Positions 1,789 through 52,158 of a stretch of DNA of 64,000 bases are shown here, one piece after another (the stretch's first letter is position 1; each line of letters begins with the position of its first letter). The stretch comes from Streptomyces griseiscabiei. GTDB taxonomy: Bacteria; Actinomycetota; Actinomycetes; Streptomycetales; Streptomycetaceae. The position numbers and the translations under genes are program-made. The stretch covers positions 2,170,001 to 2,234,000 of the forward strand of contig NZ_JAGJBZ010000002.1 of assembly GCF_020010925.1 (NCBI RefSeq), given 5' to 3'. The notes under the pieces are model-generated. The model was not told the origin of the DNA and ran no database searches. It saw only the letters and a list, made by a program, of their open reading frames with translations.

Positions 1789-3765
1789 GTGACGATTCTG
1801 GAGAGCATCCGGCAACCGCGCGACCTGAAGGCGCTGACCGAGGCGGAACTCGGTGAACTGGCCGAAGAAATCCGGGAGTTCCTGGTGCACGCGGTCGCCA
1901 GGACCGGTGGTCACCTGGGACCCAACCTGGGGGTGGTGGAACTGACCGTCGCCCTCCACCGGGTCTTCGAGTCACCCGTCGACCGCATCGTCTGGGACAC
2001 CGGGCACCAGAGCTATGTGCACAAGCTGCTGACCGGACGGCAGGACTTCTCCAAACTGCGCGGCAAGGGCGGCCTGTCCGGCTATCCCTCGCGCGAGGAG
2101 TCCGAGCACGACATCGTCGAGAACAGCCACGCCTCCACGGCCCTCGGCTGGGCGGACGGCCTCGCCAAGGCCCGGCAGGTGCAGGGGGAGAAGGGCCATG
2201 TCGTCGCGGTCATCGGCGACGGCGCCCTGACCGGCGGTATGGCCTGGGAGGCCCTCAACAACATCGCGGCGGCCAAGGACCGGCCGCTGATCATCGTCGT
2301 CAACGACAACGAACGCTCCTACTCGCCCACCATCGGCGGCCTCGCCAACCACCTCGCGACCCTGCGGACCACCGACGGCTACGAGCAGTTCCTCGCCTGG
2401 GGCAAGGACGTCCTGCTGCGCACCCCGATCGTCGGCAAGGAGGTCTACGAGGCGCTGCACGGGGCGAAGAAGGGCTTCAAGGACGCCTTCGCACCCCAGG
2501 GGATGTTCGAGGACCTGGGGCTCAAGTACGTGGGTCCGATCGACGGACACGACATCAAGGCCGTCGAGTCCGCGCTGCGCCGCGCCAAGCGCTTCCACGG
2601 GCCCGTCCTCGTGCACTGCCTGACGCAGAAGGGGCGGGGGTACGAGCCGGCGCTCGCCAACGAGGAGGACCACTTCCACACCGTCGGTGTGATGGACCCG
2701 CTGACCTGCGAGCCGCTCACCCCCGCCGGCGGACCGTCCTGGACGTCGGTCTTCGGCGACGAGATCGTCCGGATCGGCGACGAGCGCGAGGACGTCGTGG
2801 CGATCACGGCGGCCATGCTGCACCCCGTCGGGCTCGGCAGGTTCGCGGAGAAGTTCCCCGACCGGGTGTGGGACGTCGGCATCGCCGAGCAGCACGCGGC
2901 GGTCTCGGCGGCCGGGCTCGCGACGGGCGGGCTGCATCCGGTGGTGGCGGTCTACGCGACCTTCCTCAACCGGGCCTTCGACCAGCTGCTGATGGATGTG
3001 GCGCTGCACCGGTGCGGGGTCACCTTCGTCCTGGACCGGGCCGGAGTGACCGGCGTCGACGGCGCCTCGCACAACGGCATGTGGGACCTGTCCGTCCTCC
3101 AGGTCGTGCCGGGGCTGCGGATCGCCGCGCCGCGCGACGCCGAGCAGTTGCGGACGCAGCTGCGGGAGGCGGTCGCCGTGGACGACGCCCCGACACTGAT
3201 CCGCTTCCCGAAGGAGTCCGTGGGGCCGGAGATCCCGGCCCTGGACCGGGTGGGCGGCATGGACGTCCTGCACCGTTCCCCGACCGCGAAGGCCCCGGAC
3301 GGCCCGTCGGTGCTGCTGGTCGCCGTCGGTGTGATGGCGTCCGTGTGCCTCCAGGCCGCGGAGCTGCTGGAGAGCCGGGGCATCGGCTGCACCGTCGTCG
3401 ACCCCCGCTGGGTCAAACCGGTCGACCCGGCGCTGCCCTGGCTCGCCGACGAACACCGGCTGGTGGCCGTCGTGGAGGACAACAGCCGCGCGGCCGGGGT
3501 CGGTTCGGCGGTCGCCCTCGCGCTGGGGGACGCCGAGGTCGACGTGCCCGTACGGCGGTTCGGCATCCCGGAGCAGTTCCTCGCGCATGCCAAGCGCGGG
3601 GAGGTGCTGGCCGACATAGGGCTGACGCCGGTCGAGATCGCCGGGCGGATCAGCGCCTCACTGGCCGCCCGGGACGACTTCGCCAAGGGCGACCCGAAGG
3701 GGGAATCGAAGGAGGAATCGAAGGGGGACCCGTCCCAGGCCGAGCCCGCCGAGGAGAAACCGTAG
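1789..3765 (+). CDS. dxs: 1-deoxy-D-xylulose-5-phosphate synthase (Dxs)
   Basis: Thiamine-diphosphate enzyme that condenses pyruvate with glyceraldehyde-3-phosphate, the entry step of the MEP pathway. 658 residues. The TPP/Mg motif runs from GDGALTGG (about residues 143-150) to the downstream NDN; the pyrimidine-domain catalytic glutamate is in [14 protein letters not shown], and the transketolase C-domain follows. GTG start at 1789, preceded by GAGAGGG. The last ~25 residues are a hydrophilic repeat ([14 protein letters not shown]) beyond the usual family end, likely a disordered tail. The stop TAG abuts the ATG of the next gene with no spacer, indicating translational coupling. Probably the cluster-specific paralogue of a housekeeping dxs elsewhere. 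Confidence 0.96.
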
Positions 3766-9469: not shown

Positions 9470-9661
9470 CGGCGTCAATCCGGACGGACGCCCAATCCTG
9501 CCGCCGACCGGAGCCGCGTACCGACCCGATCCACGGCAGGAGCGGGGGACCCACAGGAATCACCGCCTGTTCCGGTCTCCGGAACGGCTAGGGGTAAAGC
9601 CGTGCGCAAGCACGGCCGGACATCTCCAGTCCGCACCCGACAGCTCACCTCGCAGGCGCCG
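9470..9661 (+). ncRNA. c-di-AMP riboswitch (ydaO-yuaA type)
   Basis: The region carries the conserved blocks of the actinobacterial ydaO element in order: AATCCTGCCG, then GGCAGGAGCGGGGGACCCA (about 9535-9553), then GGGGTAAAGCCG (about 9592-9603), and finally CCGACAGCTCACCTCGCAGGC near 9638-9658. This element binds cyclic di-AMP and in streptomycetes precedes genes for cell-wall hydrolases, which is exactly the situation here (M23 gene at 9676). High c-di-AMP is expected to lower expression. End points are approximate because the outer helix was not folded. Confidence 0.92.
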
Positions 9662-9675
9662 GAGAGGAATTCGCC

Positions 9676-28241: not shown

Positions 28242-28315
<74 letters not shown>

Positions 28316-39074: not shown

Positions 39075-40028
39075 ATGGCACACGACAAGCCCTGCTGCGC
39101 CCCCGGACGCGAGCCGGTGGCCGGGGCGCTCGGTGGTCCCGTCGATGTCCCGTCCGGCGCCGCGCCGGCACGCGGCGGCGAACGGCTGCTGCCGCTGCCC
39201 GGCGGGGTGTTCCTGATGGGCACCGAGGACGAGGCGGGCTACCCGGCGGACGGGGAGGGGCCGGTCCGGGAGGTCCGGGTGAGGCCGTTCCGTATCGCCG
39301 CGACGACCGTCACCAACGAGCGGTTCGCCGAGTTCGTGGACGCGACCGGCCATGTGACCGAGTCCGAACTCTTCGGCTTCTCCTTCGTCTTCGAGGGCTT
39401 CCTGCCCGCCGACGTGCGTGCCGTCTCCCCGCGCGTCCCCGGCACCCCGTGGTGGCGCGGTGTCCGGGACGCCACCTGGCGGCGGCCGGCCGGGCCCGGT
39501 TCCTCCGTGGACGCGCTCCTCGACCACCCGGTGGTGCACGTCTCCTGGAACGACGCGCAGGCCTACTGCGCCTGGTCCGGCACCCGGCTGCCCACCGAGG
39601 CCGAGTGGGAGTACGCGGCCCGCGGTGGCCTGGCCGGGAAGCGCTACCCATGGGGCGACGAACTCGCCCCCGGTGGCCGGCACCTCTGCAACATCTGGCG
39701 CGGCACGTTCCCGACCGACAACACCGCCGCCGACGGCCACCGTTCGACGGCCCCGGCCGACGCCTTCGAGCCCAACGGCTTCGGCCTGTACAACACCGTC
39801 GGCAATGTGTGGGAGTGGTGCGCCGACCGGTTCAGCCCGGATTTCCATGTCACCGGCCCGCGTACAAATCCGACGGGCCCGCCCGACGGCCCGGCCCGGG
39901 TCATGCGCGGCGGCTCCCACCTGTGCCACGCCTCCTACTGCAACCGCTACCGGGTGGCCGCGCGCTCCTCCAACACACCGGACAGCGCCGCCGGGAACAT
40001 CGGGTTCCGGGTGGTGGCAGGGGGCTGA
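39075..40028 (+). CDS. Formylglycine-generating enzyme
   Basis: 317 residues, FGE-sulfatase (SUMF1-type) fold. Converts a cysteine in CxPxR motifs of sulfatases to formylglycine. The copper/active-site cysteines are C284 and C289 (GGSHLCHASYCNRYR), the same five-residue spacing as in the characterised S. coelicolor enzyme, and the tail RSSNTPDSAAGNIGFRV is typical. VHVSWNDAQAYCAWSGTRLPTEAEWEYAARGG marks the family. Retention of both cysteines argues against an EgtB- or PvdO-type relative. No sulfatase is nearby, so its target is elsewhere. ATG 39075 after AGGACA. Confidence 0.92.
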   Translation: MAHDKPCCAPGREPVAGALGGPVDVPSGAAPARGGERLLPLPGGVFLMGTEDEAGYPADGEGPVREVRVRPFRIAATTVTNERFAEFVDATGHVTESELFGFSFVFEGFLPADVRAVSPRVPGTPWWRGVRDATWRRPAGPGSSVDALLDHPVVHVSWNDAQAYCAWSGTRLPTEAEWEYAARGGLAGKRYPWGDELAPGGRHLCNIWRGTFPTDNTAADGHRSTAPADAFEPNGFGLYNTVGNVWEWCADRFSPDFHVTGPRTNPTGPPDGPARVMRGGSHLCHASYCNRYRVAARSSNTPDSAAGNIGFRVVAGG

Positions 40029-43090: not shown

Positions 43091-43180
43091 CCGGCGGGTG
43101 TCCACACCTCGGACGATGTTCCCATTTCCTGGACAGCCTCTTGACGCGGGGCGGGGTCGGATCGACACTCCAGGTGGGGT

Positions 43181-43205
43181 ATTTCCTAGTGAACAGGTAG
43201 GGAAT
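43181..43205. promoter_or_regulatory. Imperfect inverted repeat ATTTCCTA-N9-TAGGGAAT upstream of leader 1
   Basis: ATTTCCTA (43181-43188) and TAGGGAAT (43198-43205) are inverted with one mismatch and a 9-bp spacer. It lies 32 bp before the GTG of the first leader peptide in an otherwise gene-free, relatively A/T-rich stretch. Could be an operator or overlap the promoter (-10-like TAGTGA at 43187). Confidence 0.45.
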
Positions 43206-43236
43206 GATGGGGCGCCTGGAGCCGGTCGTCACTCAT

Positions 43237-43329
43237 GTGCCGCGCGCACGCCGGCGGTCCCTTCTGCTGACCTCCCGCCGTCACATCGATCTGCTGCGCG
43301 TCTGCAGCGCGAGAAGCCCCCTGAGCTGA
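43237..43329 (+). CDS. Leader peptide 1, DLLRV family (30 aa)
   Basis: A short ORF ending LTSRRHIDLLRVCSARSPLS just before the glutathionyl-hydroquinone-reductase-like gene. The HIDLLRV core recurs in two more mini-ORFs at 44449 and 48588. Such peptides are known in streptomycetes as putative leader peptides in front of sulphur-assimilation genes. Here the Cys codon follows the core directly (RVCS). Start uncertain: GTG 43237 gives MPRARRRS like leader 3; in-frame ATGs at 43204 and 43207 are alternatives. An overlapping ATG at 43235 encodes the 11-mer MCRAHAGGPFC. Role as a cysteine-sensing attenuator is inference. Confidence 0.7.
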   Translation: MPRARRRSLLLTSRRHIDLLRVCSARSPLS

Positions 43330-43434
43330 GCCGCCGGCGGGGCGCTCCATCGGGCCCGAGCCCGCGCCCGAGCCCGCGCCGTTCCGTGTACTCGCGTCAC
43401 CACGCGACCGCGCACCAGAATCCCGGGGAGACAC

Positions 43435-44349
43435 ATGTCCGCCATGCCCGTCCACGCCCTGAACGCCGTTCCGTCGCCGCGGCCCCTGCCCTCCTTCCGG
43501 GGCAGGATCGGCTGCGACGCGCGCAGCGGCCACTACGCCGTGCCGCGCCGCTACCGGCTCCATCTGTCGCTGTCCTGTCCGGGTGCCCTGCGCATCGCCA
43601 TCGTGCACAGCCTCCTCGGGCTGGCCGACGCCTGTCCCGTGACCCTCCTGCCCGCCGTGCCCGACGGCCCGGACGGCGAGCACTCCGCGCTGCGCCCGCT
43701 GTACGAGGCGAGTGCCCACCGCTACCCCGGAGCGGCCGTGGCGCCCGTCCTCAGCGACGACTGGTCCGGACGCATCGTCAGCACCCACGCCCCCGACATC
43801 ATGCGCGACCTCGCCCGGCGCTTCGGCGGCGGCCGGCCGGAGATGTACCCGAAGGGCGCGGAGGCCGAGATCGAGGGGGTCGCCCGCCTCTGCGAACAGG
43901 GCATGGACGGGGCCGCCCAGCGCGCCGGACGTGTCGGCGCCGACGACCTGGAACGCGGCGACGCGCTGCGCTCCCTGCTGCGCACCCTGCGCTCCCTGGA
44001 CGCCCGGCTCGCCGGGCAGACGTATGTCCTCGGCGACCAACTCACCGCCGCCGACGTCGAGTTGTGGGTCGCTCTGGTACGGCTCGACACCGTGCACCGC
44101 TGGCACCTTGACGCCTCCGCCGTGCACCGGATCGCCGACCACCCCCACCTGTGGGCGTACGCCCGGCGACTGGCCGCCCACCCCGCCTTCGGCCCGCACC
44201 TCGACCTCGACGGCATCGCCCGCCGTCACCACGCCCACTGCCAGGGCCTGGAGGCGGCCGGTGCGGCCGTACAGATCCTGGACTGGGCCTCGCACGTCCC
44301 GGACCAGGGCGTATCGACAGACGGACGAGCGTCCCATGTGCTGGACTGA
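43435..44349 (+). CDS. Glutathione S-transferase/glutathionyl-hydroquinone-reductase-like protein
   Basis: 304 residues. Arrangement resembles the YqjG/ECM4 (Xi-class) transferases: N-terminal GRIGCDARSGHYAVPRRYRLHLSLSCPGALRIAIVHSLLGL with an SCPGA motif where characterised members have CPWA, then MRDLARRFGGG, and a C-terminal helical domain (RLAGQTYVLGDQLTAADVELWVALVRLDTVH). Xi enzymes reduce glutathionyl-quinones through that cysteine. Actinomycetes use mycothiol, so the thiol partner is probably different. ATG 43435 after GGGGAG. Its leader peptide and position before the ABC importer place it in the sulphur-compound cluster. Confidence 0.78.
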   Translation: MSAMPVHALNAVPSPRPLPSFRGRIGCDARSGHYAVPRRYRLHLSLSCPGALRIAIVHSLLGLADACPVTLLPAVPDGPDGEHSALRPLYEASAHRYPGAAVAPVLSDDWSGRIVSTHAPDIMRDLARRFGGGRPEMYPKGAEAEIEGVARLCEQGMDGAAQRAGRVGADDLERGDALRSLLRTLRSLDARLAGQTYVLGDQLTAADVELWVALVRLDTVHRWHLDASAVHRIADHPHLWAYARRLAAHPAFGPHLDLDGIARRHHAHCQGLEAAGAAVQILDWASHVPDQGVSTDGRASHVLD

Positions 44350-44351
44350 CG

Positions 44352-44381
44352 TTGACAGCGGCCCGCCGGGCCTGAGTTACT
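44352..44381 (+). promoter_or_regulatory. Possible promoter for leader 2 and the ABC operon
   Basis: A perfect -35 TTGACA (44352-44357) overlaps the end of the preceding gene. About 18 bp later is GTTACT (44376-44381) as a weak -10. It lies ~70 bp upstream of leader 2. Two near-identical GAAGACCGCCG repeats follow at 44419-44440. Confidence 0.4.
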
Positions 44382-44448
44382 TACGGCCACCCGAAGAGCG
44401 CGAGGCCCCACCGGGCCGGAAGACCGCCGGAAGACCGCCGGAAGAACG

Positions 44449-44574
44449 ATGGTGACGGACATGTACGCATCCCCGAGGCCCGCCGCATGGCGCCGCCAGG
44501 GCTGCGTGCCGCTCTGCGCCGACCGCGCCGTCGATCTGCTCCGGGTCAACAGCGCACTGTGTAGCGCACGTTAG
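44449..44574 (+). CDS. Leader peptide 2, DLLRV family (41 aa)
   Basis: ATG 44449 (GGAAGA just upstream) to TAG 44574; a second in-frame ATG is at 44461. The C-terminus reads CADRAVDLLRVNSALCSAR, matching the cores of leaders 1 and 3. Four cysteines in 41 residues (positions around 19, 23, 38) is high for this genome; the last Cys codon, TGT, is four codons before the stop. It precedes the ABC permease gene by ~230 bp, room enough for an attenuator hairpin (I did not identify a unique one). Confidence 0.72.
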   Translation: MVTDMYASPRPAAWRRQGCVPLCADRAVDLLRVNSALCSAR

Positions 44575-44807
44575 CGCGCCGTCCGGGCCCGACCCGGCGC
44601 CGCGCTCCCGTCGAGGCTGACGGTTCCCCGAACCTCCGAGACACCGCACCGGCGGTCGTCTCTCTCCGCCAGCCCCGGTGCCGTGCGCATCCCGTGACTC
44701 CCTTCCGTGCCTCCGTACGGCGAGCGGCGCCCCGTCGCCCGCCGTACCCCGTCACGGCCGAAGTCGCCCGCGTCGCCTGGGGTTTCGACACTCCTCCGGA
44801 GCCCTTG

Positions 44808-45791
44808 ATGAGTGAACCCCCAGGCGCCGCCGTGTCCTTGACCGAGGCACCGCCGCCCGCCGACACCCCGTCGAAGCAGCTCGCCGCCCAGCGCGTACTG
44901 CCACTGCGCCGCCCCGGCCGCTGGATCGCCACCGCCCTCGTCCTGGTCCTCGCGGCCCAGTTCGTCCACGGACTGATCTCCAACCCGTTCTACCAGTGGG
45001 ACCGCTTCGCCTACTGGTTCCTGCGGCCGACCATCCTCGACGGACTGCTCATCACCCTCGAAGTCACCGCCTACAGCGCGGTGCTGGGCCTCCTCGGCGG
45101 CATCCTTCTCGCCCTGGCCCGGCTCTCCGACAGCCCGGTCCTGCGCTCGGTCAGCTGGGTCTACATCTGGGCCCTGCGCTCGATCCCGCTGATCGTCGTC
45201 CTGCTGTTCCTCTACAACTTCAGCGCCCTCTACCAGACGCTCAGCCTGGGCGTGCCCTTCGGCCCGGCGTTCTTCACCTTCGACGAGTCACGGCTCGCCA
45301 CCGACATGGCCGTCGCCGTCATCGGCCTCTCCCTCAACGAGGCCGCCTACGCCGCCGAGGTCGTCCGCGGCGGCATCCTCTCCGTCGACCAGGGCCAGCA
45401 CGAGGCGGCCTCCGCCCTCGGCCTGCCGAAGGGCTACCAGTTCCGCAGGATCGTCTTCCCGCAGGCCCTGCGCTCGATCACCCCGAACTACGTCAACCAG
45501 CTGATCGGCCTGATCAAGAGCACCTCCCTGGTCTTCTACGTCTCGCTGCTCGACCTCTTCGGCACGGCCCAGGCCATGGGCTCCACCTACCCCGGCGACA
45601 TCGTGCCGCTGCTGATGGTCTCCACCGTCTGGTACCTGATCCTCACCAGCGTCGTCTCCGTCATCCAGTTCTACGTCGAGCGGTACTACGCCCGGGGCGC
45701 CACCCGCACCCTCCCGCCGACACCGCTGCAGAGACTGCGGACCGGGGTCACCGACCTCCGCGCCCGCGTCCGCGAGGAGGCCGCCGTATGA
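44808..45791 (+). CDS. Polar amino-acid ABC transporter permease
   Basis: 327 residues with a hydrophilic N-terminal ~45 residues, then about five to six membrane helices (IATALVLVLAAQFVHGL, LDGLLITLEVTAYSAVLGLLGGILLALA, WVYIWALRSIPLIVVLLFLYNF, MAVAVIGLSLNEAAYAAEVV, IVPLLMVSTVWYLILTSVVSVIQF). The EAA loop that contacts the ATPase is EAASALGLPKGYQFRRIVFPQAL. HisM/cystine-permease type. ATG 44808 with CCGGAG upstream; the longer frame to 44694 is leader DNA. Stop overlaps the ATPase ATG. Context (leader peptides, monooxygenases) suggests a sulphur amino acid as cargo. Confidence 0.9.
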   Translation: MSEPPGAAVSLTEAPPPADTPSKQLAAQRVLPLRRPGRWIATALVLVLAAQFVHGLISNPFYQWDRFAYWFLRPTILDGLLITLEVTAYSAVLGLLGGILLALARLSDSPVLRSVSWVYIWALRSIPLIVVLLFLYNFSALYQTLSLGVPFGPAFFTFDESRLATDMAVAVIGLSLNEAAYAAEVVRGGILSVDQGQHEAASALGLPKGYQFRRIVFPQALRSITPNYVNQLIGLIKSTSLVFYVSLLDLFGTAQAMGSTYPGDIVPLLMVSTVWYLILTSVVSVIQFYVERYYARGATRTLPPTPLQRLRTGVTDLRARVREEAAV

Positions 45792-46591
45792 CCGCCACGA
45801 CGCGCGAGAGCGCCAAGGCGCTCGACCAGCCGGCCGCCACGGTCGAGGTGCACGACGTGCACAAGTGGTACGGCGCCCACCGGGTCCTCAACGGCGTCGA
45901 CCTGACCGTCCGCCCCGGCGAGGTCACCGTGATCCTCGGCCCGTCCGGCTCCGGCAAGTCCACGCTGCTCAGGGTCATCAACCACCTGGAGAAGCCCGAG
46001 ATCGGCCATGTCAGCGTCAACGGCGAGCTGATCGGCGTACGGCGTCACGGCGACCGGCTGAAGGAGCTGAGCGAACGGGCGATCCTCACCCAGCGCTCCC
46101 GGATCGGCTTCGTCTTCCAGAACTTCAACCTCTTCCCGCACCTGACCGTGCTGGAGAACGTGGCCGCCGCCCCGGTGGCGACCGGCAAGCTCGGCCGCGC
46201 CCGGGCCGACGACCTCGCCCATGAACTCCTGGACCGGGTGGGCCTCGCCGACAAGGCCGCCGCCTACCCACGGCAGCTGTCGGGCGGACAGCAGCAGCGT
46301 GTGGCCATCGCCCGCGCCCTCGCCCTGCGGCCCGGCGTCATCCTCTTCGACGAGCCGACCTCCGCCCTCGACCCCGAACTCGTCGGTGAAGTCCTCGCCG
46401 TCATCAAGGACCTGGCGCGCGGCGGCACCACGCTGGTGATCGTCACCCATGAGATCGGCTTCGCCCGGGAGATCGCCGACCGGGTCGTCTTCATCGACGA
46501 CGGCCGCATCGTCGAACAGGGCCCGCCCGCCGAGGTCCTGGACAGGCCGCGCCACGAGCGCACGAAGGACTTCCTCAGCAAGGTCCTCTGA
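45788..46591 (+). CDS. Amino-acid ABC transporter ATP-binding protein
   Basis: 267 residues. Walker A GPSGSGKST, Q-loop FQNFNLFPHLTVLENV, signature LSGGQQQRVAIARAL, Walker B VILFDEPTSALDPE, H-loop VTHE: a complete GlnQ/HisP-type ATPase. An insertion after the first beta-sheet (GELIGVRRHGDRLKELSERAILTQRS) is typical of the cystine and YxeO-like branch. ATG 45788 overlaps the permease stop (ATGA). Only one permease gene is present, so the membrane part is presumably a homodimer. Confidence 0.94.
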   Translation: MTATTRESAKALDQPAATVEVHDVHKWYGAHRVLNGVDLTVRPGEVTVILGPSGSGKSTLLRVINHLEKPEIGHVSVNGELIGVRRHGDRLKELSERAILTQRSRIGFVFQNFNLFPHLTVLENVAAAPVATGKLGRARADDLAHELLDRVGLADKAAAYPRQLSGGQQQRVAIARALALRPGVILFDEPTSALDPELVGEVLAVIKDLARGGTTLVIVTHEIGFAREIADRVVFIDDGRIVEQGPPAEVLDRPRHERTKDFLSKVL

Positions 46592-46679
46592 CCGCGCCCG
46601 CCCCCTTGGGACTTCCCCCACGGCCCCCCACACGCACGCACATCACCGTCCACACCCTCTCGACACGACAAGGACAGCC

Positions 46680-47714
46680 ATGCCCACGCACACCCGGTTC
46701 TCCCGGCGCAGCCTGCTGCGCGGCATCACCGCGGCGACCGCCGCCGCCACCCTCGCCACCGGGCTCGCCGCCTGCGGGGGCGACACCGAGGCCGCCACCA
46801 CGACCGGATCGGCCTCCGCCGGCACGGTCACCGTGGGGCAGCTGTCCAACGGCGCCGCCAAGGAGACCAGGATCAAGGTCTCCGAGGTGAAGTCCATCAG
46901 CGCCAAGCTGCCCGCCGCGATCAAGAAGAGCGGCAAGCTGGTGATCGGATCCGGCACACTGCCGTCAGGCAGCCCGCCGCTCGGCTTCATCGGGAGTGAC
47001 CAGAAGACCGTCACCGGCTCCGAGCCGGACCTCGCCAGACTCGTGGCGGCGGTGCTCGGCCTCGAACCCGAGGTGCGCCAGTCGACCTGGGAGAACCTGT
47101 TCATCGGGATCGACAGCGGCAAGGTCGACGTCGGCTTCTCCAACATCACCGACACCGAGGAACGCAAGCAGAAGTACGAGTTCGCCTCCTACCGCAAGGA
47201 CGACCTGGCCTTCGAGACGAAGAAGGACAACGCCTGGAAGTTCGACGGGGACTACGAGAACCTCGCCGGGAAAACGGTCTCCGTCGGCAACGGCACCAAC
47301 CAGGAGAAGATCCTCCTGGAGTGGAAGGCCAAGCTGGCGAAGGAGGGCAGGAAGCCTCTCACCGTCAAGTACTTCCAGGAGACCAACAGCCTCTATCTGG
47401 CGCTGAGCAGCGGCAAGATCGACGCCTACTTCGGGCCCAGCCCCAACCTCGCGTACCACGCGGCCAAGACCGCCGGTACGCCCCAGGCGACCCGGATCGC
47501 GGGGCAGTTCTCCGGCGCCGGTGAGTCCCTCCAGGGCCTGATCGCCGCGACCGCGAAGAAGGACAGCGGCCTCGCCGAACCGCTCGCCGAGGCGATCAAC
47601 CATCTGATCGACAACGGCCAGTACGCCGAGTGGCTGAAGGCCTGGAACCTCTCCAACGAGTCCGTGGAGAAGTCCGAGGTCAACCCGCCGGGCCTGCCGC
47701 TCACCAACTCCTGA
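46680..47714 (+). CDS. Amino-acid ABC transporter substrate-binding lipoprotein
   Basis: 344 residues. Tat-like SRRSLLRG followed by a hydrophobic stretch and lipobox GLAAC (C32), so an exported lipoprotein. The SBP_bac_3 domain (KSGKLVIGSGTLPSGSPPLGFI to INHLIDNGQYAEWLKAWNL) has the usual VTGSEPDLARLVAAVLGLE and GIDSGKVDVGFSNITDTEERKQKYEF motifs. Ligand presumably a polar amino acid, and from the surrounding genes an S-substituted cysteine. 89 bp downstream of the ATPase; ATG 46680 with AAGGA upstream. Confidence 0.93.
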   Translation: MPTHTRFSRRSLLRGITAATAAATLATGLAACGGDTEAATTTGSASAGTVTVGQLSNGAAKETRIKVSEVKSISAKLPAAIKKSGKLVIGSGTLPSGSPPLGFIGSDQKTVTGSEPDLARLVAAVLGLEPEVRQSTWENLFIGIDSGKVDVGFSNITDTEERKQKYEFASYRKDDLAFETKKDNAWKFDGDYENLAGKTVSVGNGTNQEKILLEWKAKLAKEGRKPLTVKYFQETNSLYLALSSGKIDAYFGPSPNLAYHAAKTAGTPQATRIAGQFSGAGESLQGLIAATAKKDSGLAEPLAEAINHLIDNGQYAEWLKAWNLSNESVEKSEVNPPGLPLTNS

Positions 47715-47784
47715 CCAACCGTCACCCCAACCGCACGGCACACCCGTTGAACACTCCGCCGAAGAGGGAGAGGACTCCGTCCCC

Positions 47785-48531
47785 GTGGCCCATCCGACCG
47801 AACCGCACGGGGGCGGAGCCCCGCTCGCACCGGACACCTCGGTTCTCGACAACGCCGTATGGACCTCCCTCGACGGCCCGCACGCCCGCTTCGCCGAACG
47901 GTTCGGCAGGGCCGCCCGCTACCGGACCGACGTCTACGCCTTCGCCGCCCTCGCCGACCCGGCGGACCCGGCCGCCTGGGCCGACCTGCGCACGCTCGTC
48001 GGCCCGGGAGCCGTCGTCCGGGTCAAGCCGGTCGACCGGGTCCCCGACGGCTGGGAGGTACTGGGCGGTGGACAGGGTGTCCAACTCGTGGACGCAGGTC
48101 TCCGGGCCGAGCCCGCCCCCGAAGCGGTGCCGCTCGGTCCGGACGACGTCCCCGAGATCCTGGACCTCGTCGCCCGTACCGAACCGGGCCCCTTTCTGAA
48201 GCACACCGTCGAACTGGGCACCTATCTCGGCATCCGGGACAGGGGGCGGCTCGTCGCCATGGCGGGGGAACGCGTCCATCCGCCCGGCTGGACCGAGATC
48301 AGCGCGGTCTGCACCGACCCGGAGTACCGCGGCCGGGGCCTCGCCACCCGCCTGGTCCGCGCGGTCGCCGCGGGCATCCGCGCACGCGGCGAGACCCCCT
48401 TCCTGCACGCCGCCGCCGACAACGTCCCCGCGATCCGGCTCTACGAGTCCCTCGGCTTCACCCCGCGCCGCCGTTCCACGATCCTGGCGGTCCGCAGTCC
48501 GGGAACACCCGGTGGGGGCGCGATGTTGTGA
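47785..48531 (+). CDS. GNAT-family N-acetyltransferase
   Basis: 248 residues. The GNAT domain occupies the C-terminal half: AMAGERVHPPGWTEISAVCTDPEYRGRGLATRLVRAVAAGI (acetyl-CoA motif YRGRGLA) and AADNVPAIRLYESLGFTPRR. The N-terminal ~110 residues are a degenerate FR47-like half-domain (VYAFAALADPADPAAWADLRTLV). In Bacillus ytm and yxe operons an acetyltransferase N-acetylates S-substituted cysteines before a flavin monooxygenase cleaves the C-S bond; the gene order here, importer then acetyltransferase then monooxygenases, is the same. GTG 47785. The precise substrate is inference. Confidence 0.88.
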   Translation: MAHPTEPHGGGAPLAPDTSVLDNAVWTSLDGPHARFAERFGRAARYRTDVYAFAALADPADPAAWADLRTLVGPGAVVRVKPVDRVPDGWEVLGGGQGVQLVDAGLRAEPAPEAVPLGPDDVPEILDLVARTEPGPFLKHTVELGTYLGIRDRGRLVAMAGERVHPPGWTEISAVCTDPEYRGRGLATRLVRAVAAGIRARGETPFLHAAADNVPAIRLYESLGFTPRRRSTILAVRSPGTPGGGAML

Positions 48532-48587
48532 CGCACGACGAGATCCGCGAGGCGCCGTCGCGCGCCCGGACGAGGGAGGTGCCGGCC

Positions 48588-48674
48588 GTGCCCCGTGTGC
48601 CGCGCGCCGTCCGCCTCCACTCCCGGCCCCATATCGATCTCCTGCGCGTGGCCGGCGCGCTCTGTCGCTCCTGA
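48588..48674 (+). CDS. Leader peptide 3, DLLRV family (28 aa)
   Basis: GTG 48588 (GAGGGAGG about 8 nt upstream) to TGA 48674, ending SRPHIDLLRVAGALCRS. Same core as leaders 1 and 2, with the Cys codon TGT three codons before the stop. Lies between the acetyltransferase and the first monooxygenase, so it would gate only the monooxygenase part of the cluster. G/C third positions and a good ribosome site support translation. Confidence 0.75.
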   Translation: MPRVPRAVRLHSRPHIDLLRVAGALCRS

Positions 48675-48756: not shown

Positions 48757-50037
48757 GTGTCCCCCTCCGCCGCTTCGCCCGCGCCCGCATCCCCGACTCC
48801 CGCATCCCAGACTTCCGCCTCCTCCATTCCCGCCTCCCCGACTCCTCCTCCCGCCGCCCTGCACCTCGCCGTCGCGCTGGACGGCACCGGCTGGCATCCC
48901 GCCTCCTGGCGCGAGCCGGTCGCCCGGCCCCGCGAGGTGTTCACCGCCGGATACTGGGCCGACCTCGTCGGCGAGGCCGAGCACGGACTCCTCGACCTCG
49001 TGACGATCGAGGACGGCCTCGGCCCGCAGTCCGCGCACTTCCTGGACCCGGACGAGCGCACCGACCAGCTCCGCGGCCGGCTGGACGCCGTCCTCGTCGC
49101 GGCCCGGATCGCCCCTCTCACCCGGCACATAGGCATCGTGCCGACCACCGTGGCCACCCACACCGAGCCGTTCCACATCTCCAAGGCGATCGCCACCCTC
49201 GACCACGTCAGCTCCGGCCGGGCCGGCCTCCGTGTGCAGATCACCGCCCGGCCGAACGAGGCCGCCCACTTCGGCCGCCGTACGGTCCCGCGCATCGAGG
49301 CCTACGACAGCCCGGACGCCCAGGAGCTGGTGGCCGATCTGTTCGACGAGGCCGCCGACTACGTCGAGGTGGTGCGCCGCCTCTGGGACAGCTGGGAGGA
49401 CGACGCCGAGATCCGGGACGTGGCCACCGGACGGTTCGTCGACCGGGACAAGCTGCACTACATCGACTTCCAGGGTCGCCGGTTCAGTGTCAAGGGCCCC
49501 TCCATCACCCCCCGTCCGCCGCAGGGCCAGCCCCTCGTGGCCGCCCTCGCGCACGCCACCGTCCCGTACCGGCTGGTGGCCCGCCAGGCGGACATCGGCT
49601 TCGTCACCCCGCACGACACCGACCAGGCGCGCGCGATCGTCGCCGAGATCCGCGCCGAGCAACGGGCCGCCGGGCGCGCCGACGAACCCCTGCACGTCTT
49701 CGGCGACCTGGTCGTCTTCCTCGACGACGACCCGGCCGAGGCGGCGGCCCGCCGGGAGCGTCTCGACGCGCTCGCGGGGGAGCCGTACACGAGCGACGCC
49801 CGGATCTTCACCGGCACACCCGCCCAACTCGCCGACCTGTTGCAGGAGTTGGCGACAGCCGGGCTGACCGGCTTCCGGCTGCGGCCCGCCGTGGCCGGCC
49901 ACGACCTCCCGGCGATCACCCGGGGCCTGGTTCCCGAACTCCAGCGCCGCGACGCCTTCCGCCACGCCTACGAGGCCGACACCCTGCGCGGACTGCTGGG
50001 ACTGGCCCGCCCCGCCAACCGCTACACCGCCGCCTGA
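48757..50037 (+). CDS. LLM-class flavin-dependent monooxygenase
   Basis: 426 residues. Ser/Pro/Ala-rich low-complexity N-terminus (about residues 1-35), then a luciferase-like barrel: LHLAVALDGTGWHPASWREP, DLVTIEDGLGPQS, RIAPLTRHIGIVPTTVATHTEPFHISKAIATLDHVSSGRAGLRVQI, and RPPQGQPLVAALAHATVPYRLVARQADIGFV. FMNH2 supplied by a separate reductase, none adjacent. Probably one of two oxygenases that oxidise an S-modified cysteine derivative for sulphur release. GTG 48757 after AGGAAGG; 21 bp before the next monooxygenase. Confidence 0.9.
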   Translation: MSPSAASPAPASPTPASQTSASSIPASPTPPPAALHLAVALDGTGWHPASWREPVARPREVFTAGYWADLVGEAEHGLLDLVTIEDGLGPQSAHFLDPDERTDQLRGRLDAVLVAARIAPLTRHIGIVPTTVATHTEPFHISKAIATLDHVSSGRAGLRVQITARPNEAAHFGRRTVPRIEAYDSPDAQELVADLFDEAADYVEVVRRLWDSWEDDAEIRDVATGRFVDRDKLHYIDFQGRRFSVKGPSITPRPPQGQPLVAALAHATVPYRLVARQADIGFVTPHDTDQARAIVAEIRAEQRAAGRADEPLHVFGDLVVFLDDDPAEAAARRERLDALAGEPYTSDARIFTGTPAQLADLLQELATAGLTGFRLRPAVAGHDLPAITRGLVPELQRRDAFRHAYEADTLRGLLGLARPANRYTAA

Positions 50038-50058: not shown

Positions 50059-51405
50059 ATGAGCAAGCCGCTGAAGCAGATCCACCTGGCCGCCCACTTC
50101 CCGGGCGTCAACAACACCACCGTCTGGAGCGACCCGAAGGCCGGCAGCCACATCGAGTTCAGCTCCTTCGCACACTTCGCGCGGACCGCCGAACGCGCCA
50201 AGTTCGACTTCCTGTTCCTCGCGGAAGGCCTGCGGCTGCGCGAACAGGGCGGCCGGATCTACGACTTGGACGTCGTGGGCCGCCCCGACACCTTCACCGT
50301 GCTGTCCGCGCTCGCCGCCGTCACCGACCACCTCGGCCTGACCGGCACCATCAACTCCACCTTCAACGAGCCCTACGAGGTGGCCCGCCAGTTCGCCAGC
50401 CTCGACCACCTCTCCGGCGGGCGCGCCGCGTGGAACGTCGTCACCTCCTGGGACGCCTTCACCGGCGAGAACTTCCGCCGGGGCGGCTTCCTGCCGCAGG
50501 AGGAGCGCTACTCCCGCGCGAAGGAGTTCCTGGCCACCGCGAACGAACTCTTCGACTCCTGGGACGGGGACGAGATCGTCGCCGACCGGGAGACGGGCGT
50601 CTTCCTGCGGGACGCCAAGGCCGGGGCCTTCGTGCACAGCGGGCAGCACTTCGACATCGAGGGCCGGTTCAACGTCCCGCGCTCACCCCAGGGCCGCCCG
50701 GTGATCTTCCAGGCCGGGGACTCCGACGAGGGCCGCGAGTTCGCCGCGTCGAGCGCCGACGCCATCTTCAGCCGGTACGCCGACCTGGATTCGGGCCGCG
50801 CCTTCTACGCCGACGTCAAGAACCGTCTCGCCCGCCACGGCCGCCGCCACGACCAGCTGCTCATCCTGCCCGCGGCGACCTTCGTGCTCGGCGACACCGA
50901 CGCCGAGGCCGAGAAACTCGCCAAGGAGGTACGCCGCCTCCAGGTCAGCGGGGCCACCGCCCTCAAGCACCTGGAGTTCGTCTGGAACCGGGACCTGTCC
51001 TCCTACGACCCGGACGGCCCGCTCCCCGACGTCGACCCCGATGTCAGCGACACCCATATCTCCAAGGGCCGCGCCCAAGTCCGCATGTACCGCGACCCGC
51101 TCGCCACCGCCCGCGAATGGCGGGAGCGCGCCGAGGCCAACAACTGGTCCATCCGCGACCTCGTCATCAACACCGGCAACCGCCAGAACTTCATCGGCAG
51201 CCCGCAGACGGTCGCCCGCACGATCGACGAGTACGTCCAGTCCGACGCCGCCGACGGCTTCATCCTCGTCCCCCACATCACCCCCACCGGCCTCGACCCC
51301 TTCGCCGACAAGGTCGTCCCCCTCCTCCAGGAACGGGGCGTCTTCCGCACGGAGTACGAGGGCACGACCCTCCGCGACCACCTGGGGCTGGACGCGCTCA
51401 CGTAG
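50059..51405 (+). CDS. NtaA/SnaA/DszA-type FMN-dependent monooxygenase
   Basis: 448 residues. Typical of the NtaA/SnaA/SoxA(DszA) branch of luciferase-like enzymes, to which YxeK and CmoJ/YtnJ belong: KQIHLAAHFPGVNNTTVWSDP, FAHFARTAERAKFDFLFLAEG, GLTGTINSTFNEPYEVARQFASLDHLSGGRAAWNVVTSWD, FRRGGFLPQEERYSRAKEF and SPQGRPVIFQAGDSDEGREFAA. These enzymes cleave C-S or C-N bonds in sulphur compounds and aminopolycarboxylates. ATG 50059 with GGAGAGGA upstream. Last gene of the leader-peptide cluster. Confidence 0.92.
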   Translation: MSKPLKQIHLAAHFPGVNNTTVWSDPKAGSHIEFSSFAHFARTAERAKFDFLFLAEGLRLREQGGRIYDLDVVGRPDTFTVLSALAAVTDHLGLTGTINSTFNEPYEVARQFASLDHLSGGRAAWNVVTSWDAFTGENFRRGGFLPQEERYSRAKEFLATANELFDSWDGDEIVADRETGVFLRDAKAGAFVHSGQHFDIEGRFNVPRSPQGRPVIFQAGDSDEGREFAASSADAIFSRYADLDSGRAFYADVKNRLARHGRRHDQLLILPAATFVLGDTDAEAEKLAKEVRRLQVSGATALKHLEFVWNRDLSSYDPDGPLPDVDPDVSDTHISKGRAQVRMYRDPLATAREWRERAEANNWSIRDLVINTGNRQNFIGSPQTVARTIDEYVQSDAADGFILVPHITPTGLDPFADKVVPLLQERGVFRTEYEGTTLRDHLGLDALT

Positions 51406-51471
51406 AGGGTGGGCGCGGCGGCTCCCGGCGGGGGCGGCAACCCGCCCCCGCCCAACCTCCGAACCGGGTAC

Positions 51472-51498
51472 CTTCTGTTCAACAGAGCTGTACAGAAG
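51472..51498. promoter_or_regulatory. Nested palindromes before the XRE-cupin regulator
   Basis: Outer inverted repeat CTTCTGT (51472-51478) / ACAGAAG (51492-51498), with two inner palindromes CTGTTCAACAG (51475-51485) and CTGTACAG (51488-51495). It lies 21 bp before the GTG of the regulator. Looks like a two-dimer operator for autoregulation; it may also cover the promoter of the downstream operon. Confidence 0.62.
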
Positions 51499-51519
51499 CC
51501 GACATCAGAGGGGAGCCCC

Positions 51520-52158
51520 GTGTCCCCCGCCGCCGCTCCCCCCGTAGGAGCCCGCATCCGGCAGGCCCGCCTGGCGCGCGGCATGAGCCTGCGCGCCCTC
51601 GCCCGGGACGTCGGCGTCTCGGCGAGCCTGGTCTCCCAGATCGAGACGGGCAAGAGCCAGCCCTCGGTCAGCACGCTGTACGCGATCACCACGGCCCTGT
51701 CGATCTCGGTCGAGTCGCTCTTCGACAGCGAGACCGACGAGCCGAAGCGTGCGCCGGTCACCCCGCCCACCACCGTCCCCCACGCCCTCGCCACCATCGC
51801 CGCCGACCACGCCCGCCGGATCGGCCCCCTGGTCGGCGCCGGGGACCGCGAACGGCTGGAGCTGGACTCCGGGGTCGTATGGGAACGCCTCGGTCATGTT
51901 CCGGGCGCGGACGTCGACTTCCTGCTCGTCACCTACCGTCCCGGCGGCTCCTCCTCCGGCTCGGGCGGCCTCATGCGGCACACCGGCACCGAGTACGGCT
52001 GCCTCACCTCGGGCGAACTCGTCCTGACCCTCGGCTTCGAGGAGTTCACCCTGCGCCCCGGCGACGCGGTCTGCTTCGAGTCGGCGACCCCGCACCGCTA
52101 CCGCAACGACGGCGACGAACCGGCCGTCGGTGTCTGGTTCGTGTTCAGTACCACTTGA
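51520..52158 (+). CDS. XRE-family regulator with cupin domain
   Basis: 212 residues. N-terminal helix-turn-helix VGARIRQARLARGMSLRALARDVGVSASLVSQIETGKSQPSVSTLYAI, and a C-terminal cupin (LLVTYRPGGSSSGSGGLMRHTGTEYGCLTSGELVLTLGFEEFTLRPGDAVCFESATPHRYRND). Same architecture as the PuuR/BetR-like repressors of amine catabolism, where the cupin senses the pathway substrate. GTG 51520 with GGGGAG upstream. The first gene of a seven-gene same-strand block, likely its repressor or activator. Confidence 0.92.
   Translation: MSPAAAPPVGARIRQARLARGMSLRALARDVGVSASLVSQIETGKSQPSVSTLYAITTALSISVESLFDSETDEPKRAPVTPPTTVPHALATIAADHARRIGPLVGAGDRERLELDSGVVWERLGHVPGADVDFLLVTYRPGGSSSGSGGLMRHTGTEYGCLTSGELVLTLGFEEFTLRPGDAVCFESATPHRYRNDGDEPAVGVWFVFSTT

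Follow-up and report, generated by a model that had tools for sequence, protein, structure and literature searches.

Three short open reading frames (ORFs) in Streptomyces griseiscabiei share one peptide core. They lie on the + strand of a 64,000-nucleotide stretch of its 10.6 Mb genome (assembly GCF_020010925.1, contig NZ_JAGJBZ010000002.1, positions 2,170,001 to 2,234,000), which we call the window. With modest confidence, and from sequence comparison, we favour the reading that all three are regulatory leader peptides built on that core, that the nascent peptide and a single weak UGU codon together sense Cys-tRNA, and that in relatives a SAM-IV riboswitch adds a second input. Conservation is strongest in the peptide core and in how one Cys codon is spelled, not in richness in Cys. 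Coordinates refer to the window unless stated, and D+n is the codon n places after the core Asp (D).

43204 to 43329, + strand: leader 1, core LLLTSRRHIDLLRVCSA; Cys codon UGC at D+5 (43303-43305), no Cys at D+9
44449 to 44574, + strand: leader 2, core RAVDLLRVNSALC; UGU at D+9 (44560-44562), next base A
48588 to 48674, + strand: leader 3, core RPHIDLLRVAGALCRS; UGU at D+9 (48663-48665), next base C

An earlier note on this DNA had proposed that the three mini-ORFs share (H/A)(I/V)DLLRV on the + strand and stand upstream of a glutathione S-transferase (GST)-like gene, an ATP-binding cassette (ABC) operon and monooxygenases. Both proposals hold for all three. The ORFs are real, but one was probably drawn too short. 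Likely starts were chosen by conservation among relatives, and leader 1 likely begins at ATG 43204 or 43207 rather than at GTG 43237. Leader 2 probably starts at ATG 44461, with the frame open upstream at 44449 too, and leader 3 likely starts at GTG 48588, which is preceded by GGAGGTG. Cys codons had also been claimed to flank each core. This is right for leaders 2 and 3 at D+9; the Cys of leader 1 is at D+5 and is not kept in every species.

A family of leaders before sulphur genes

The family model NF042934, a 'putative leader peptide' (cis_reg_atten), was searched against all six frames of the whole genome. It recovers leader 3 at E 1.2e-7, leader 1 at 3e-4 and leader 2 at 0.024, and because all three come out of a search of that size they are not there by chance. 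By score, leader 3 alone is over the cut-off of 27 bits (37.4), with leader 1 (24.8-25.9) and leader 2 (19.1) under it. The window leaders share with NF042934 the core, R.H(V/I)DLxRV..A, and the position before sulphur genes. They differ in that leader 1 lacks the D+9 Cys, and the UGU spelling is outside the reach of a protein model that reads amino acids alone. Two further models each have a cut-off of 45 bits. NF042936 (Ms4527A) scores leader 1 at 25.7-26.7, with no match listed for leaders 2 and 3. NF042933 (Ms5788A) scores leader 1 at 12.1-12.7 and leader 3 at 13, with no match listed for leader 2.

The host genome has 11 NF042934 matches at E up to 0.05. Each of the 150 genus genomes searched, among them that of the window, holds a match above the cut-off; at E up to 0.05 the number per genome is 3 to 17. 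The same is true at the cut-off for 128 of 197 genomes sampled across the class, 16 of them congeneric. There was no match in 14 control genomes in the genus, 16-genome and class searches; at E up to 10 weak matches appeared in 10 of the 14, none over the cut-off.

Leaders were then counted in two sets. Loci L012 and L014-L021 of the genome search were excluded from the counts. Sixteen single-contig genomes gave 148 matches at E up to 0.05, from which 130 were fetched and the 18 weakest (E >0.001) excluded. Thirty genus loci, the best matches of the 150-genome search, were added, two of them shared with the 16-genome set. The genus set leaves out L044, a cut locus, and removal of six duplicates took it from 169 leaders to 163. 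The class set joins 30 loci to 60 picked from the best-first matches listed; with three own-genus loci, L229 and L304 excluded, 85 leaders remain, duplicates kept, from 43 genera counted by hand.

A downstream ORF was found for 247 of 248 leaders, and these fall into 35 similarity clusters. Thirty of the proteins, one or a few per cluster and covering some of the clusters, were scanned against Pfam. The genes are mostly sulphur-related. The largest clusters are rhodanese (41), nitrite/sulphite reductase (29), sulfatase (25), PALP with the cysteine synthase fold (24) and DUF4395 (20). After these come luciferase-like monooxygenase (14), cysteine dioxygenase (11), flavin reductase (11) and ABC permease (10), then SDF symporter (7), GST (6), ROK (6) and SBP_bac_5 (6); smaller clusters include PAPS reductase and APS kinase. 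ROK, POR, 2OG oxygenase and Peripla_BP_4 have no plain sulphur link, and the representative from L115 had no Pfam match. Each window leader likewise stands directly upstream of a gene of a sulphur-type cluster, the sulphur role being taken from gene families.

That short putative leaders precede sulphur genes in Streptomyces was offered in the earlier note as a known kind, and the NF042934 model itself bears this out. So does the RefSeq record of a Streptomyces cadmiisoli plasmid, where an ORF like leader 3, upstream of luciferase-like monooxygenase (LLM) genes, is annotated 'putative leader peptide'. Single leaders of this kind are not new.

Selection on the peptide

The ratio of nonsynonymous to synonymous differences per site (pN/pS) over DLLRV is 0.02 for leader 1 (28 sequences, preselected for Cys at D+5), 0.00 for leader 2 (21) and 0.12 for leader 3 (15). 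Widening the stretch to D-9 to D+7 gives 0.09, 0.59 and 0.41 in the same order, and an N-terminal control covering D-17 to D-10 gives 0.99, 0.85 and 1.11. When the core DNA is read in shifted frames the ratios exceed 1 for all three leaders, with one undefined. Across the family, D to D+4 gives 0.44 for the genus leaders and 0.30 for those of the class set, with 0.94-2.35 in shifted frames. The earlier note had named synonymous-site divergence equal to that of non-coding DNA as grounds for refutation. This divergence is 0.25-0.34 from D-9 to D+7, lower than the 0.53-0.55 of the N-terminal parts, which answers that objection. In these alignments the leader cores are shown to be selected as peptide: codons drift and amino acids are kept.

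The codon at D+9

Cys stands at D+9 in 156 of the 163 genus leaders, spelled TGT in 154 and TGC in 2. In other genera it is TGT in all 85 leaders of the class set. Together this is 239 of 241 sampled D+9 Cys codons, in 44 genera (the window's own and 43 others). TGT is also the commonest D+9 codon in 32 of the 35 downstream-gene clusters. The background is quite different. TGT makes up 66 of 382 Cys codons in 159 downstream ORFs, which were picked mechanically and some wrongly, and 4 of 30 in the window genes. Fisher's test of D+9 against the downstream ORFs gives p of about 4e-107, kinship ignored. Loci found through the GST protein agree, with D+9 TGT in 21 of 21 leaders 2, 19 of 19 leaders 3 and 0 of 33 leaders 1. 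The text pattern used there for leaders 2 and 3 required Cys at D+9 and left the codon free. Leader 2 is present at all 21 close permease orthologues, window included, so none was missed for lack of Cys. Seven genus leaders have no D+9 Cys; six precede GST genes and the remaining one is L215.

It is worth considering how UGU would be read. The host genome has three tRNA-Cys genes, all with anticodon GCA, by a search pattern that was open at the first anticodon base and may miss unusual genes. Since GCA is the sole tRNA-Cys anticodon found, UGU would be read by G-U wobble. For the same reason we set aside unequal charging of tRNA-Cys isoacceptors as the cause of the UGU choice. Decoding is weakened by wobble pairs and by a pyrimidine as 3' neighbour. 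MiaB is encoded in the host genome (482.6 bits, cut-off 355.3), and one idea is that sulphur-dependent tRNA modification (ms2 at A37) may bear on the choice.

How the leaders may work

The constant spacing of core and codon would suit a ribosome whose A site holds UGU while the core sits in the upper exit tunnel. One can imagine the core slowing the ribosome in that position. As Cys-tRNA falls, decoding of the single wobble UGU codon would fail first, and a lone weak codon preceded by a chain that slows the ribosome could detect a small drop. The stalled ribosome would alter mRNA folding or translation, and the sulphur gene would be expressed. A broader claim, which we hold only tentatively and at a little short of an even chance, is that across the Actinomycetes one UGU nine codons past a conserved peptide is a cysteine sensor. 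Under this claim the peptide acts as a brake on the ribosome, the wobble is deliberately weak and UGC would break the switch. The core would then be a module that can take SAM-IV ahead of it, as at leader 2 and one or more unrelated transporter loci, or do without a Cys codon, as in the GST leader.

The usual account of amino-acid leader peptides invokes runs of regulatory codons, with unequal isoacceptor charging behind the codon choice. Here one codon seems responsible and GCA is the sole tRNA-Cys anticodon found, yet the spelling is nearly fixed across 44 genera. Since it is a single codon that is nearly fixed, one base change would suffice to test what synonymous choice and the nascent chain do in metabolite sensing.

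Several observations weigh against UGU sensing behind a slowing peptide. Cys codons just past D+9 are mixed, with TGT in 11 of 27 and TGC in 16 of 27 at D+10, and TGT in 15 of 32 and TGC in 17 of 32 at D+11. A pyrimidine after UGU fails as a general rule, since A follows the codon in all 21 leaders 2; it is a tendency at most. Leader 1 shifts or loses its Cys, so the core can persist without one. The family-wide core pN/pS is weaker, at 0.30-0.54, as expected when several subfamilies are pooled. No conserved terminator or hairpin masking the Shine-Dalgarno (SD) sequence was found across the leader untranslated regions (UTRs) examined, and shuffled versions of the leader 1 and leader 3 UTRs fold just as well as the real ones (z 0.54 and -0.78). 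An SD-masking hairpin upstream of the permease stands out in 5 of 20 species only and is not used here as a mechanism. UGU could be required at the RNA level instead of in decoding. Nor does conservation by itself demonstrate stalling.

The simplest alternative is plain Cys attenuation, where ribosomes stall at the Cys codons of all three leaders and the peptide sequence itself is unimportant. Mycobacterial Cys-rich upstream ORFs (uORFs) are reported to act so in passages of PMC4633059 and of papers citing Canestrari 2020, and some leaders in our sets have Cys-rich tails. We nevertheless consider it unlikely. It does not explain why core residues distant from the Cys have pN/pS near 0. Nor does it account for Cys elsewhere in the leaders, which mostly has the common codon: TGC in 90 of 96 at D+2, 45 of 54 at D+7 and 12 of 13 at D+8. 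Seven poly-Cys leaders in the class sample have TGT at D+9, and TGT is frequent elsewhere in their Cys runs too. Leader 1 also counts against it. Of 33 loci, 30 have a UGC Cys codon at D+5 in this leader; in L054, L055 and L056 that codon is Ser (TCC), there is no Cys anywhere in the leader, and HIDLLRV.SA is kept. The leader of L172, upstream of a GST paralogue of 42% identity, has no Cys either. The common mechanism of the earlier note, stalling at Cys codons in all three, is supported in part. Translated-type leaders before sulphur genes, peptide-level selection and mycobacterial relatives reported as cysteine-responsive speak for it; what lacks support is its reach to leader 1, which has no D+9 Cys and is Cys-free in 3 of 33 orthologues.

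One can also imagine that UGU is part of an RNA element overlapping the ORF (a pause site, a protein site or a base pair) with no decoding step. We think this doubtful, and more so than plain attenuation. One nucleotide is invariant beyond what the peptide needs, and a pyrimidine follows the D+9 codon in 228 of 241 leaders, against 254 of 567 for Cys codons of downstream ORFs. Leader 1 has a variable codon at D+9 (AGC in 15 of 33) and still has C at the next place in 30 of 33. However, the genus-set logo has no other nearby base near-invariant beyond peptide demand, and the register to the peptide core is fixed. A scan of 40 leader loci against Rfam turned up SAM-IV ahead of two leaders, Ms_IGR-5 ahead of one and nothing else.

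Small proteins functioning in trans would be strongly conserved, as the cores are, but we find this very improbable: the N-terminal parts evolve as if neutral, the ORFs lie directly upstream of mostly sulphur genes, and the stop codon comes 11 to 26 residues past the motif start in the loci compared. That these are chance or merely inherited ORFs without function deserves almost no credence even with leaders 1 and 2 under the NF042934 cut-off, given that they are kept in 33, 21 and 19 loci with coding-type substitution in the right frame and ratios above 1 in shifted frames.

Leader 1 as the exception

With the core retained but UGU absent, leader 1 is unlikely to sense Cys-tRNA by the UGU route. 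In the Cys-free species it cannot sense cysteine through Cys codons at all, though the peptide is selected. It may be a constitutive brake, or it may respond to another cue. Two features lie just upstream.

43141 to 43169, + strand: promoter-like TTGACG-N17-GACACT, seen by eye and conserved in the alignment; weak, and the consensus scan found no promoter
43183 to 43204, + strand: inverted repeat TTCCTAGTGAACAGGTAGGGAA, a possible operator, containing the SD-like AGGTAGGGA; kept in most relatives, chance mean 0.05 in the window

We looked for a regulon sharing this repeat and rejected the idea, as the genome has one copy only with up to 3 mismatches allowed.

SAM-IV in front of leader 2

SAM-IV (RF00634), a riboswitch for S-adenosylmethionine (SAM), stands directly upstream of leader 2 in 12 of 19 loci scanned with Rfam (L057, L058, L060, L063, L064, L065, L066, L067, L069, L070, L071 and L075), at 96.8-100.6 bits against a gathering threshold of 38. 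The scan did not find it in L052, L053, L054, L055, L059, L073 or the window, where it is missing even at E up to 1. L056 and L083 are outside the scan and both align with the SAM-IV-negative type. The most probable history is that the window and its nearest relatives lost it. In its place the window has one candidate.

44352 to 44381, + strand: promoter-like TTGACA-N18-GTTACT, where many relatives have SAM-IV; seen by eye, not reported by the consensus scan, no Rfam match

In the relatives SAM-IV is followed by a second, translated element, leader 2, whose start closely follows the aptamer. SAM-IV may therefore act on translation of leader 2 itself. In most of the scanned relatives SAM-IV and leader 2 would give two inputs, SAM and Cys-tRNA, and if this is true such pairs are compact controls joining SAM and cysteine supply.

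Seventeen whole genomes have 22 SAM-IV matches: one strong copy each (17; 104.7-116.6 bits) and 5 others. Four of the 5 extra copies, two in G068 and two in G040, are directly upstream of leaders, namely leader 2 twice, the leader of one SBP_bac_5 gene and a Cys-free GST leader. By motif scan there is no leader near the extra copy in G065 or the strong copy in the window's own genome; strong copies in the other genomes were compared with listed leaders by position alone.

Two arrangements should be mentioned. At L315 (G040), positions 2848-3410, two divergent SAM-IV copies adjoin each other, facing a Cys-free GST leader on one side and leader 2 on the other. At L010 of the host genome, positions 1583-1808 on the minus strand, an Ms_IGR-5 RNA (RF02471, 67.3 bits) lies just upstream of the Cys leader of a 2OG-Fe(II) oxygenase gene.

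Other structures in the leader regions

The UTR of leader 2 folds better than shuffles in the window (z -4.17). The permease hairpin has a 9-bp stem in the window, L052, L083 and L064 and an 8-bp stem in L053. Against 300 mononucleotide shuffles of the 5' arm, p is 0.003-0.02 for these five and 0.2 to 0.98 for the 15 remaining species of the 20 compared. The pooled mean z of 0.90 is carried by the five, four of them close relatives. Two intrinsic terminators were found, with 1.3 expected; both are on the opposite strand and none is on the leader strand.

Conservation and clustering of the leaders

We fetched 38 loci via the GST protein, or 39 with the window. Leader 1 is in 33 of these, leader 2 in 21 and leader 3 in 19. 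The core comparison takes the 19 loci with the GST gene, a permease orthologue of at least 80% identity and the monooxygenase LLM1, and all three leaders are present in 14 of them. Leader 3 is missing in L052, L053, L059 and L083 because the N-acetyltransferase (GNAT) gene and LLM1 nearly abut there. These four are close relatives, so leader 3 is not fixed even near the window. L064 lacks leader 1. L072, L078 and L080 fall outside the 19, having a distant permease alone (51-53%), and have at most two of the three leaders each. Leader 1 accompanies the GST gene even without a permease or LLM match (L074, L077, L079, L082).

In the 16 other, single-contig genomes (148 leaders) there are 11 pairs of leaders within 10 kb, where 1.48 are expected and 2000 simulations gave 8 at most. 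Three of the 11 stem from one triple. This is the only triple observed, against 0.009 expected and a simulation maximum of 1.

Related systems

Mycobacterial Cys-rich leaders (NF042936 Ms4527A, NF042933 Ms5788A) are likewise uORFs with Cys codons before sulphur genes. Such relatives are reported as cysteine-responsive attenuators (Canestrari 2020, as cited in passages of PMC13236596 and PMC9094748), and part of Shell et al. 2015 (PMC4633059) reports ribosome occupancy of a Cys-rich uORF upstream of cysA2. The seven poly-Cys leaders of the class sample have a DLCR(V/I)AG core, UGU at D+9 and Cys runs with several UGU, whereas many leaders here have 1-2 Cys. In the Rhodobacterales, uORFC-8-2 upstream of cysS is a Cys attenuator candidate too. 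It differs in having two adjacent Cys codons, UGC dominant and a terminator-like stem, and passages of the paper mention no H.DLxRV core (PMC8632094). The attenuators of S. lividans TK24 are short leaders upstream of amino-acid genes, as here; Table 4 of that paper gives Ala, Ile, Thr, Trp, Leu and Met leaders and none for cysteine (PMC8079986, in part). Among the titles, abstracts and passages covered by our literature searches, none describes actinobacterial leaders with a fixed UGU, a point that Canestrari 2020 may discuss under codons, or SAM-IV combined with a Cys leader.

Genes of the cluster

43435 to 44349, + strand: GST-like gene (PF13410)
44808 to 45791, + strand: ABC permease of polar amino-acid type, by family assignment
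45788 to 46591, + strand: ABC ATPase, by family search
46680 to 47714, + strand: solute-binding lipoprotein (SBP_bac_3)
47785 to 48531, + strand: GNAT N-acetyltransferase, by family search
48757 to 50037, + strand: LLM1, luciferase-like flavin monooxygenase (TIGR03860 259.6 bits, under the cut-off of 279.7)
50059 to 51405, + strand: LLM2, FMN-dependent monooxygenase of the NtaA/DmoA family (TIGR03860 432.6 bits, over the cut-off of 279.7)

From these families the cluster appears to process sulphur compounds. The top two NCBIfam equivalogs for the permease are glutamate/aspartate (117.8 bits) and cystine (114.4 bits), both far under cut-off. For the lipoprotein the top transporter model is the cystine solute-binding protein, at 79.1 bits and under its cut-off of 312 bits. 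The gene set may be comparable to the operons for S-alkylcysteine salvage in Bacillus subtilis (ytmI, yxe).

A regulator with a helix-turn-helix and a cupin domain (51409-52158) adjoins the monooxygenases downstream and is a candidate cluster regulator. A few kb upstream is a further sulphur-related gene, for a formylglycine-generating enzyme (39075-40028; FGE-sulfatase, 283.9 bits). Elsewhere the window has a c-di-AMP riboswitch at 9513-9671 (RF00379, 61.6 bits) and a tRNA gene at 28242-28315 (RF00005, 63.8 bits).

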